Assembly: GCA_028874985.1 (NCBI GenBank)
Contig: JAPPGI010000043.1
Span: 3,515 to 35,574, forward strand
Length of the DNA: 32,060 bases
Source of the DNA: Gemmatimonadota bacterium
Lineage (GTDB): Bacteria > Gemmatimonadota > Gemmatimonadetes > Longimicrobiales > Gaopeijiaceae
Direction of reading: 5' to 3'
Below, piece after piece: positions 3,801 through 31,245 of the stretch (position 1 is its first letter; each line of letters starts with the position of its first letter). Both the position numbers and the translations under genes were made by a program. The notes below the pieces were generated by a model that made no database searches, was not told where the DNA came from, and saw only the letters and a list, made by a program, of their open reading frames with translations.

Positions 3801-4058
3801 CACATTGGCGGCCAACCGGACCGTATCGCCGACCCAGAGAAGTGTCGCGGAGTCGGGAAAAATCGTGATGGTCGCCGGAACCGGCGGATGGGGCTCGGTT
3901 GCGCACCCGCCGGCCAGGGTTGCGACCGCGAGCCCCAGCAGTCCGTGGACAAAGCCGCCCGAGTGGCGAGGCGCCGGCCTGGCAAGGCGGGCGGGTTGTC
4001 CACGGGGTGCCGGCGCGCGCTGAGGGATCCGTGAGAGGATTCGATGGAGAGGCTTCAT
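840..4058 (-). CDS. LRR-metzincin lipoprotein (Ig-like + LRR + zinc protease)
   Basis: Large (1072 aa) secreted lipoprotein that probably binds and cleaves a surface or extracellular protein. The ATG at 4058 gives a signal with lipobox LAGGC (Cys52); the signal is unusually long because of a basic, proline-rich n-region (about 18-37). An Ig-like/BIG2-type domain follows (about 60-132, ending in VASVRGAVKEVEGLTTITV). The first LRR block is about 137-415, with 24-residue units of the form L-x-N-x-L-x-G-x-I-P-P-E-L-G-x-L. A second cap (DGDSWTNNDGW) with a shorter LRR block covers about 436-580. The C-terminal half contains HEVGHTLNLRH (834-844), the metzincin zinc pattern HExxHxxxxxH with Asn in place of the usual Gly, and a downstream DIMGYC that fits a Met-turn. 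A beta-rich tail ends the protein. Substrate and family are not assigned. The longer reading frame upstream to 4250 contains the promoter and is not expected to be translated. Confidence 0.88.
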   Translation of the reverse strand: MKPLHRILSRIPQRAPAPRGQPARLARPAPRHSGGFVHGLLGLAVATLAGGCATEPHPPVPATITIFPDSATLLWVGDTVRLAANVWPVAWTSDDESVVTVDSAGVVTAVGKGVASVRGAVKEVEGLTTITVNPDRSVLVEIHEALGGSGWRRDDNWGTDAPLDKWYGVTADSEGNVQALRLPANGLSGTIPPAIGHLGALDTLNLFRNDLTGPVPPELGNLRQLRLLSLGWNDLTGPVPPELGNLTSLAWLDLARNRLSGSIPPELGDLSNLSRLSLWKNELTGAIPSELGNLSSLRDLWLSENELTGTIPAELGQLSTVIDLGVQNNNLSGPIPPELGHLSSLAQLALYNNDLSGPLPPEIGNLSKLVDLRLHDNPDLEGLLPRSVLNLHNLSYLDISGTDLCAQLDAEFREWLASIPEAYGWRCPATQVERHALAEFYASTDGDSWTNNDGWNSDADVDDWYGVTVGDSLVEQLRLPDNGLDGPLPPVIGNLQALESFDVADNTLNGVFPVALVIDALDTIRISGNEDMIGPLPFDMIEMEELKALEFEDTDLCASPSKTFQEWIDSLDVAEGATCDNPDSVKLSLPVVYLNQAIQRPEGDVPLLPDRDALLRVFLVGDQENAFFEPEVFATFMRDGEEVHRVVMQSEQDRVPTVVDEGDLIKSYNAVIPAKYFEDGTEFVVVADSAEVIPRAEGSQTRFPETGSAALNVIEVPPLELTVVPVLYADDPDSSIFEWTDSIDDDSENVGLFKHSFPFSEFGASSWDTAYVTSLDPTEDAWEILLDLETVYKSAKATGYWYAVADSKEGYVRGIARLNGWVSYGKPWDTELAHEVGHTLNLRHAPCGGPSGVDPDFPYDNGSIGMWGWDSRDSSLVSPYTRRDIMGYCYEQGWLSDYYYEKVIDLREDKEGDPQEGRAGAGPEGRMLVLWGGVLDGELRIEPVHSMYTTPTLPRETGPYTLEGVTSGGVVEFSLSFTPGEDIDGNKYFLFWIPIEEDWEDTLDRITLTGPEGEVTVDDGDPRSLTVVTDPATGLIRAILRDWNRVLPGALGDTSGLEVVTTRGLQDAVRLR
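3325..3436 (-). repeat. Recently duplicated LRR unit (two identical 40-nt blocks)
   Basis: Positions 3325-3364 and 3397-3436 are identical over 40 nt and exactly 72 nt (24 codons, one LRR) apart. They encode the N-DLTGPVPPELGNL part of neighbouring repeats. Other units in the gene are clearly more diverged, so this pair looks like a recent duplication or gene conversion. Confidence 0.8.
3937..4005. repeat. Dispersed repeat copy with inverted ends, inside a signal-peptide region
   Basis: On the plus strand AGCAGTCCGTGGACAA (3937-3952) is followed by GGCGAGGCGCCGG (3965-3977), and then by TTGTCCACGG (3996-4005), the exact 10-nt reverse complement of 3943-3952. The first two blocks recur in the same order at 31104-31147. 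The segment translates as about residues 18-41 of the LRR-metzincin lipoprotein. Confidence 0.6.
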
Positions 4059-9122: not shown

Positions 9123-9156
9123 CCGGATCACGGCGTCGCGAAGCGAAGCGATCCGG
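9123..9156 (-). repeat. Inverted repeat abutting the serS start codon
   Basis: CCGGATC (9123-9129) and GATCCGG (9150-9156) form a perfect 7-bp stem with a 20-nt loop that itself contains TCGC/GCGA pairings. It ends 2 nt from the serS ATG, where a ribosome site would normally be. It could affect translation or be part of a repeat; neither is shown. Confidence 0.45.
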
Positions 9157-9186
9157 CGCGGACGCATCCCCGCCTGCACACCAGGG

Positions 9187-9208
9187 GGAGTTTTCCCACG
9201 GGCTGCTA
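9187..9208 (-). repeat. Dispersed repeat core, variant copy
   Basis: Minus strand TAGCAGCCCGTGGGAAAAC matches the TAGCAGTCCGTGGACAA seen at 9842-9858 apart from two substitutions and the extreme end. Its first three bases are the stop codon of the lipoprotein gene at 9206-9760. Confidence 0.4.
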
Positions 9209-9760: not shown

Positions 9761-9840
9761 GGCTGAATCTATCCGTCCCGGAGCGCTGCCGTCAATGTCC
9801 GTGATGGGTGTCGGGCCCTTGACTTCGCCTGTGTTTCCGG

Positions 9841-9858
9841 CTAGCAGTCCGTGGACAA
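9841..9858 (+). repeat. Dispersed repeat core copy
   Basis: CTAGCAGTCCGTGGACAA on the plus strand shares 16 nt (AGCAGTCCGTGGACAA, with a preceding T/C difference) with 3937-3952. It lies in the predicted untranslated leader of the lipoprotein gene. Confidence 0.5.
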
Positions 9859-9931
9859 TTGTTGCGGCAGCCCTGGAGCAGGGTGGGTAAACCCGTGCCA
9901 ACACCTGGAGCGGCGACCGATGACGGCTCGT

Positions 9932-9960
9932 AATGTAAACTACACATTACATATTGTAAA
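9932..9960 (-). promoter_or_regulatory. Promoter reading toward the lipoprotein gene
   Basis: Minus strand: -35 TTTACA (9955-9960), 17-nt spacer, -10 TACATT (9932-9937). It is embedded in the dyad array, so a bound repressor would block it. The leader to the ATG at 9760 would be about 165 nt. Confidence 0.5.
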
Positions 9961-9974
9961 CTGTATATGACATA

Positions 9975-10003
9975 TTGTGGTGTTGTCACTACAACTGTAC
10001 AGT
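9975..10003 (+). promoter_or_regulatory. Candidate promoter of manC
   Basis: Plus strand: TTGTGG, 17-nt spacer, TACAGT (9998-10003). The hexamers are weak, but the -10 lies inside the 14-bp palindrome, so this promoter too could be covered by the same regulator. The leader to the GTG at 10083 would be about 75 nt. Confidence 0.3.
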
Positions 10004-10082
10004 TGAGCGGAGCGAACCGGGGCGCGTTTGGCGCCACCCGTCCACAGAGCGGATTGCATCCGCGGGCCGCCGGGTTCCGGTC

Positions 10083-11168
10083 GTGACTCCCGACCACTTG
10101 ATCTGGGTGACGGTCCTGGCCGGTGGCGCGGGCCACAGGTTCTGGCCCCTGAGCACGCCCGAGCGGCCGAAGCAGCTTCTGCCGCTGGCGGGTTCCCGGC
10201 CTCTGATCGTCGACACGATCGAGCGCATGCGCGGGTTCGTCCCGTCCGAGCGTCTGCGGGTCCTCGCCGGAGAGGAACTCGTGGCTCCGATTCGGGCCGT
10301 GACCGGCCTTGGCCGCGACGCGTTCCTGGTGGAGAGCCGGGCCAGGGGCACTGGTCCGGTCCTGGCCCGCGCCGCCTGGGAGGTGGCCCGGCACGATCCC
10401 CGCGCGGTCATGGTTTCCGTCCATTCCGATCACCTGATCGACCCCGTGGAGCGGTTCCTGGACGTGCTGCGCGCCGCCGTCGAGATCGCAGGCCGGGAGC
10501 AGCTCCTGCTCACGGTCGCGGTTCCGCCCACCCGGCCCGAGACCGGATACGGCTACATCCGCCCGGGCGCCGCCCTGGATGCGCCGGCACGACACCGGGC
10601 ATACCGGGTCGACGCCTTCGTGGAGAAGCCCGGACCCGCCACCGCGGCCCGATACCTGGAGGAGGGCTACCGCTGGAACTCGGGCATCTTCGTCTGGCCG
10701 GCGCTCACCTTCCTTGCCGAGGTCGAGCGGTGTGCGCCCGAGGTCGATCGCGCCCTCACCCGCCTTGAAGAGGGGGACTGCGCGGCGTTCTTCGAGGAAG
10801 TTCCGAGGATCAGTGTGGACGTAGCGGTCCTGGAGCGGAGCGGCCGGGTGGGATGTGTCGACGCCACCTTCCGCTGGGACGATGTCGGCAGCTGGGAGTC
10901 CTTCGCCCGCAACCGGCCCGCCGATGAACAGGGGAACGTGCTCGACGGGGAGGTGCATCTGGCCGCGGCCACCGGCAACGTCGCGCTGGCCACGGACGGC
11001 CGCCTCGCCCTGTTCGGGGTGGACGGCCTTCTCGTCGTCCGGACCGGCGACGTCACCCTGGTAATGCCCCGTTCCGAGTCTCCGCACCTCAAGCGGTACC
11101 TGCGGGAACTGCCGGAACACCTGCTGCGACCGGCGGCCGGTCGTGACGCCGGCCCGGACGAAGGCTGA
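10083..11168 (+). CDS. manC: Mannose-1-phosphate guanylyltransferase
   Basis: Makes GDP-mannose from mannose-1-phosphate and GTP, a precursor for glycans and deoxysugars. 361 aa from the GTG at 10083. The nucleotide-binding signature AGGAGHRFWPLSTPERPKQ (13-31) carries the family's G-x-G-x-R-x-W-P-L-S pattern. ETGYGYI, FVEKP and WNSGIF are the expected substrate-pocket motifs, and the DVAVLER/WDDVGSW pair follows. The C-terminal isomerase cupin of bifunctional enzymes is absent. The start is inferred from where homology begins, as the frame is open to 9975 through the operator array; no strong ribosome site is visible. The stop overlaps the start of the next gene (TGATG), so the two are translationally coupled. 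Confidence 0.9.
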   Translation: MTPDHLIWVTVLAGGAGHRFWPLSTPERPKQLLPLAGSRPLIVDTIERMRGFVPSERLRVLAGEELVAPIRAVTGLGRDAFLVESRARGTGPVLARAAWEVARHDPRAVMVSVHSDHLIDPVERFLDVLRAAVEIAGREQLLLTVAVPPTRPETGYGYIRPGAALDAPARHRAYRVDAFVEKPGPATAARYLEEGYRWNSGIFVWPALTFLAEVERCAPEVDRALTRLEEGDCAAFFEEVPRISVDVAVLERSGRVGCVDATFRWDDVGSWESFARNRPADEQGNVLDGEVHLAAATGNVALATDGRLALFGVDGLLVVRTGDVTLVMPRSESPHLKRYLRELPEHLLRPAAGRDAGPDEG

Positions 11169-31099: not shown

Positions 31100-31119
31100 G
31101 GGGCCGTGGACAAAGCCCC
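31100..31119 (+). terminator. Short hairpin directly after pntB
   Basis: GGGGC (31100-31104) pairs with GCCCC (31115-31119) around a 10-nt loop CGTGGACAAA that contains the dispersed-repeat core. The stem is short and lacks a T-run, so terminator function is only possible. Confidence 0.35.
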
Positions 31120-31147
31120 ACAAGCACCGAGAGCGGCGAGGCGCCGG
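31104..31147 (+). repeat. Dispersed repeat copy beside the integrase
   Basis: CCGTGGACAAAGCC (31104-31117) and GGCGAGGCGCCGG (31135-31147) occur in the same order and orientation as at 3943-3956 and 3965-3977, with 17 nt between them here and 8 nt there. Two exact blocks of 14 and 13 nt in order are very unlikely by chance. Confidence 0.6.
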
Positions 31148-31245
31148 GCCGACATTTGGTTGAAGTTTCGCATCTTGTTGCGGTGATTGTGGTTGCATGC
31201 TCGACAGCCCGATTTCCCGCTGAATGATTCCCGCCGGTCGCGATC

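Follow-up and report, generated by a model that had tools for sequence, protein, structure and literature searches.

Operators of HipB-type XRE regulators follow a 5-8-5 dyad geometry, TATCC-N8-GGATA, and the sites of BlaI/CopY repressors are TACA-N2-TGTA. The Correia/NEMIS elements of Neisseria are MITEs with IHF sites (PMC2229807, PMC10969869), and in Neisseria gonorrhoeae, where one such element lies in the mtrCDE leader, its IHF site lowers transcription (PMC10969869). The Escherichia coli RelB operator, relO, has four half-sites with the core [A/T]TGT[A/C]A, and its hexads form two adjacent 12-bp half-sites between which no insertion is tolerated (PMC2812701). The window analyzed here, a stretch of 32,060 nucleotides from a Gemmatimonadota bacterium, holds a tandem array of dyads between a lipoprotein gene and manC. 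The array is made up of three 21-bp units starting at 9934, 9955, and 9976; in each, an 18-bp dyad of the form TGTMA-N8-TKACA precedes a 3-bp spacer, and units 1 and 2 are 76% identical. The elements of the array are as follows.

9934 to 9951: array unit 1, TGTAA-N8-TTACA
9955 to 9972: array unit 2, TGTAA-N8-TGACA, 21 bp after unit 1
9976 to 9993: array unit 3, degenerate, TGTGG-N8-CTACA
9990 to 10005: TACA-N2-TGTA and a 14-bp palindrome, at the decayed right edge of the array

The palindrome (CAACTGTACAGTTG at 9992-10005) is perfect, the TACA-N2-TGTA at 9990-9999 is the single exact copy in the whole window, and GC content around the array is 32-33% in 60-bp windows versus 68% for the whole window. 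The window array is far beyond chance. Its units 1 and 2, the 39-bp array at 9934-9972, match 20 of 20 half-site letters, and in 595 kb of fetched loci, which had been picked for holding arrays, 106 arrays scored at least 18/20 versus none in shuffled and reversed copies. A first-pass annotation of this DNA had described three 21-nt tandem units with dyads, the TACA-N2-TGTA, the palindrome, and an AT-rich island, all of which are in the sequence, and its view of an operator-type tandem array phased at two helical turns holds. The 21-bp phasing that it gave is right, but the N2 dyad is not the core of the repeat, the true unit being TGTMA-N8-TKACA with 3-bp spacers. The minus-strand promoter hexamers that it placed inside the array were found (9960-9932), but these and the plus-strand hexamers are both weak, at 9/12 letters.

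The genome-wide scan for dyad arrays that had been proposed did reveal dispersed arrays, with a spacing of N3. Allowing at most one mismatch, TGTAA-N8-TTACA occurs 81 times in the 4.25-Mb genome to which the window belongs, versus 8 times for the reversed pattern, and TKACA-N3-TGTMA occurs 40 times versus once in the control. When the 38 exact N8 dyads were taken without regard to their neighbors, the next half-site lay at a gap of 3 in 28 of them and at a gap of 2 in 2; this excess of gap 3 yields a full motif of 39 bp, TGTMA-N8-TKACA-N3-TGTMA-N8-TKACA. A motif of three half-sites was found in 22 of the 23 genomes of the genus (the window's own and 21 of 22 congeners), with 44 matches in the own genome and 16-364 per congener, both strands counted, and the reversed control gave 0 in every genome. 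Other genera searched gave 0-1 matches, which is background. The sole array-free congener, G008, has neither an array nor a single dyad anywhere in its genome. Single dyads numbered 149 in G021, 35 in G017, and 413 in G010; this last count is much the highest, and the G010 genome is a small one (2.8 Mb). In another genus, the AT-rich genome G092 has one near-perfect array whose spacing is identical.

In the complete chromosome of G021, the arrays are scattered across all 4.47 Mb. Solo arrays there (n = 41) lie between co-directional genes in 19 cases, convergent genes in 15, and divergent genes in 4, with 3 inside predicted genes, and they often lie at most 60 bp past a stop codon. No shared function was seen among the genes neighboring arrays, no family accounting for more than 3 of 94. 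This siting and the incoherent neighbors do not look like a classical regulon, and a promoter-only regulon was rejected on the grounds of the many convergent or 3' sites and the lack of a common neighbor function. An ori- or ter-type chromosome site was rejected as well, given arrays across the whole of G021. The half-site pairs of N8 dyads show a Watson-Crick pair count equal to expectation; since the half-sites do not covary, an RNA hairpin or terminator was rejected, and the array would be a site read by protein on DNA rather than an RNA stem. Several solo arrays (loci L224, L259, L271, L282, and L303) were seen between tandemly duplicated paralogous genes.

The 248-bp MITE of this genus, a repeat bounded by the terminal inverted repeats GCAGYCCGTGGAYA, holds many copies of the array; its terminal 14-mer occurs 96 times in the own genome and 0 times in the reversed control. 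Solo arrays have unrelated flanks and a different consensus inside N8. At one G021 locus (C1:207292-207815, L243-L245), three arrays stand exactly 249 bp apart and are apparently tandem MITE copies. A profile search found further MITE fragments in the window at 3937-3989 (E 3e-8), 9136-9206 (E 5e-6), and 31104-31154 (E 6e-9); the one beginning at 3937 falls in the first part of a large ORF, where it encodes VHGLL of a signal-peptide-like region. The features of the leader between the lipoprotein gene and manC are listed below.

9766 to 9795, minus strand: lipoprotein promoter TTGACG-N18-TAGATT, conserved in relatives
9819 to 9847, plus strand: manC promoter of relatives, TTGACT-N17-TAG(G/C)TT, conserved, with TAGCAG as the -10 in the window
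9844 to 9857, plus strand: GCAGTCCGTGGACA, exact terminal inverted repeat of the 248-bp MITE, starting inside the manC -10 (GGCTAG)
10054 to 10069, minus strand: possible decayed second MITE end, weak, seen by alignment and not significant with the array masked
10083 to 11168, plus strand: manC, NTP_transferase, mannose-1-phosphate guanylyltransferase type, likely GTG start

Array-free relatives share the manC promoter TTGACTT-N17-TAGGTT or TAGCTT. In the window, the array is flanked at a distance of about 90 bp on each side, by the former native manC promoter upstream and by the GTG start downstream. In the closest relative, G014, the junction between MITE and promoter is identical to that of the window, and the locus (L007) carries only two units versus the three of the window. 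Outside its array, L007 matches the right end of the MITE at 11.9 bits, the shuffle maximum being -0.4. For the window outside the array, the match to the MITE is marginal, at 4.2 bits against 1.6 for the best of 100 shuffles, and in a separate run with masking it reached 4.1 bits, against a shuffle maximum of 5.9. It is probable, though not proved, that the window array came on a MITE that landed in the manC -10. When the orthologous intergenic region was compared among relatives, as had been suggested, the promoters of both genes proved conserved, and the array was present in the manC leader in only 6 of the 23 species. On a ManC tree these fall into two separate clades, {G000, G014}, where G000 is the window's own genome, and {G020, G004, G011, G007}, so that two changes are needed. 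The array would thus have reached the manC leader twice independently, at least one arrival being probably on a MITE; a MITE origin was rejected for the arrays of the second clade, which show no similarity outside the array. The first-pass annotation had also proposed joint control of the lipoprotein gene and manC. This finds no support: each of the two genes has a conserved promoter of its own outside the array, that of the lipoprotein gene at 9795-9766, and only 6 of the 23 species have the array at manC.

Arrays are also met by a group II intron. In seven copies found in the own contigs, the intron starts precisely where an array ends on the right (TATACA or TGTACA, then GTGCGCC), and one further copy, in G006, follows TTGACA.

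Loci with an intron at an array: L312, L316, L319-L322, and L324 (own genome); L313 (G006)

Longer sequences related to the intron match Rfam RF02003, and copies that follow TTCTCA or TTTCCTGC are sibling groups with other targets. With eight copies placed exactly after the last half-site, the array serves as an intron homing site.

Three solo arrays occupy orthologous places in the own genome and G021, and one of them fronts a gene for a protein with HTH_3 and PBP_like domains, which was chosen for testing as a candidate regulator since its locus is one of the three common to the two species.

G000:C6:31014-32108, minus strand: candidate XRE-PBP regulator gene, own genome, beside a ModA-type gene

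The protein has an HTH_3 domain (PF01381, 45.9 bits), for which the best PDB sequence match is CylR2, and a C-terminal PBP_like domain; in the literature library searched, there was no paper on PF12727-HTH regulators or CylR2 operators. The gene after it is of ModA type (TIGR01256, 117.6 bits, cut-off 62.5). In both the own genome and G021, the gene directly upstream of the array and regulator (L340 and orthologs) belongs to the GPP34 (Golgi phosphoprotein 3) family. Orthologs of the regulator are present in the own genome and the 21 array-bearing congeners, with 55-100% identity to the G021 protein, and the start of the recognition helix, GVSRQA, is identical in 22/22. An array scoring 18-19/20 stands 71-149 bp before the regulator start in all 22 genomes. 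Mean pairwise identity there reaches 0.90 for the half-sites, against 0.66 for the inner bases and 0.31-0.33 for the 40-bp flanks. In several species, half-sites 1 and 3 at the regulator read TTGACA/TTGTCA-N16-TGTAAT/TATAAT, as in the TTGTCA-N16-TATAAT of G009. Since these half-sites form -35- and -10-like hexamers, binding would block the regulator promoter, and autorepression of the regulator is likely. Conserved dyads over its own promoter, an HTH_3 domain, and co-distribution with the sites, as expected of an XRE (HTH_3) autorepressor, were all found. In G033, of another genus, a 53%-identical ortholog has two dyads upstream at a spacing of 22 bp; the genome has only 2 strict dyads, one of which lies upstream of this ortholog with a near-match beside it. 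In G008, the regulator ortholog is absent, only a weak HTH match being found. As G008 is nested inside the genus on the ManC tree, it most simply lost both the regulator and the sites, although this co-absence amounts to one loss event, in a genome that surely lost other genes too.

Taken together, we favor, with a probability of about 0.72, the reading that the window array is a promoter-type operator of the XRE/PBP-like repressor encoded beside ModA, multiplied in the genus and probably brought to manC by a MITE. The regulator that would bind the window array is most likely encoded outside the window. Two XRE-PBP dimers, or three in the window, would be lined up along the same face of the DNA at intervals of two helical turns. 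The regulator would repress its own gene, where the array covers the promoter, until a ligand is sensed; going by the neighboring ModA, our guess for this ligand is molybdate, tungstate, or a related compound. Across the genus, the operator would have reached intergenic copy numbers in the tens or hundreds, carried in part by the 248-bp MITE, and one such MITE would have inserted into the manC -10 region and then decayed except for the array. When bound in the manC leader, the array could be a roadblock to RNA polymerase, or it could control a promoter inside the array; a precedent is the Correia copy of the mtrCDE leader with its IHF site (PMC10969869).

The regulator family named by the first-pass annotation does not fit these data, and we consider it very improbable that the array is a BlaI/MecI/CopY-type operator governing the lipoprotein and manC genes. 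The exact TACA-N2-TGTA and the TTACA/TGTAA half-sites speak for such an operator, as do five Penicillinase_R proteins in the own genome and four congeners in which a BlaI gene has an array some 200 bp before it. However, N2 is not the spacing of the motif, given a gap of 3 in 28 and of 2 in 2 of the 38 dyads, and the sole N2 copy in the window belongs to the decayed edge. Nor do BlaI genes track the motif: Penicillinase_R proteins occur in 58 of 59 genomes, including G008, and in 30 of 31 genera, most of them array-free. In the four congeners, the array overlaps the 3' end of the gene ahead of BlaI, and where a BlaI ortholog has a different upstream neighbor there is no array. The first-pass annotation had suggested looking for arrays upstream of blaI-like genes, and at the five BlaI loci of the own genome there is neither an array nor a TACA-N2-TGTA.

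A different genus-specific protein, nucleoid-associated or chromosome-organizing, might bind the arrays instead, with the XRE-PBP regulator gene as only one of its targets. This is unlikely, though it is the strongest of the alternatives: it would agree with the high copy number, the spread over the whole G021 chromosome, and the many convergent and 3' positions beside functionally incoherent neighbors, but beyond the genus, in G033, hardly any dyads are found away from the regulator promoter, and in G008 the regulator and all dyads are absent together. Less probable still is that the array is the mere interior of a selfish element, a transposase-binding or RNA-hairpin motif with no regulator. 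Many copies do lie within the 248-bp MITE; the solo arrays, with their unrelated flanks and other N8 consensus, the absent Watson-Crick covariation, and the strong conservation of the regulator copy against diverged flanks in 22 genomes all argue against it.

The array is a real and widespread operator array whose family had been misassigned, and it now has a named candidate regulator and a promoter footprint in 22 genomes. Going further, we tentatively suggest, at somewhat less than even odds, that in this genus an operator serving a single local, self-repressing transport regulator became dispersed over the whole genome. Its spread would be due partly to a MITE, a group II intron would have adopted it for homing, and one lineage would have lost it completely along with the regulator. 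In this scenario the regulator would have turned into a chromosome-wide binding factor. If the regulator does bind the arrays, the species of this genus form a natural series in which one operator ranges from 0 to several hundred copies, and it becomes testable how a specific repressor adapts to, or is altered by, runaway multiplication of its own site. The same sugar-nucleotide gene leader would have received such an operator array twice, at least once probably on a MITE.

Similar to BlaI/MecI/CopY operators, the array has TTACA/TGTAA-like half-sites and tandem dyads, but the spacing is N3 rather than N2 and there is no link to blaI/copY genes. With relO it shares the core, whereas its half-sites are 8 and 3 bases apart; a RelB-type RHH site was rejected on this spacing. 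A PadR-type dyad was likewise rejected for a misfit of half-site spacing. As with ModE and other molybdate-responsive regulators, the regulator gene lies beside modA, although the candidate here is XRE-HTH plus PBP_like and not of the ModE fold. The likeness to Correia/NEMIS elements is that of a MITE which bears a protein-binding site and can land between promoter and gene; IHF, however, is a general architectural factor, whereas the candidate here is an autoregulated specific repressor. With HipB-type XRE/HTH_3 operators, the array shares five-base half-sites, an eight-base spacer, and tandem copies in an autoregulated promoter, and it differs in sequence, in the PBP-like ligand domain of the candidate regulator, and in its tens to hundreds of dispersed copies. 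The underlying kinds, an XRE operator and a MITE-borne binding site, are known, and the variant described here is new.
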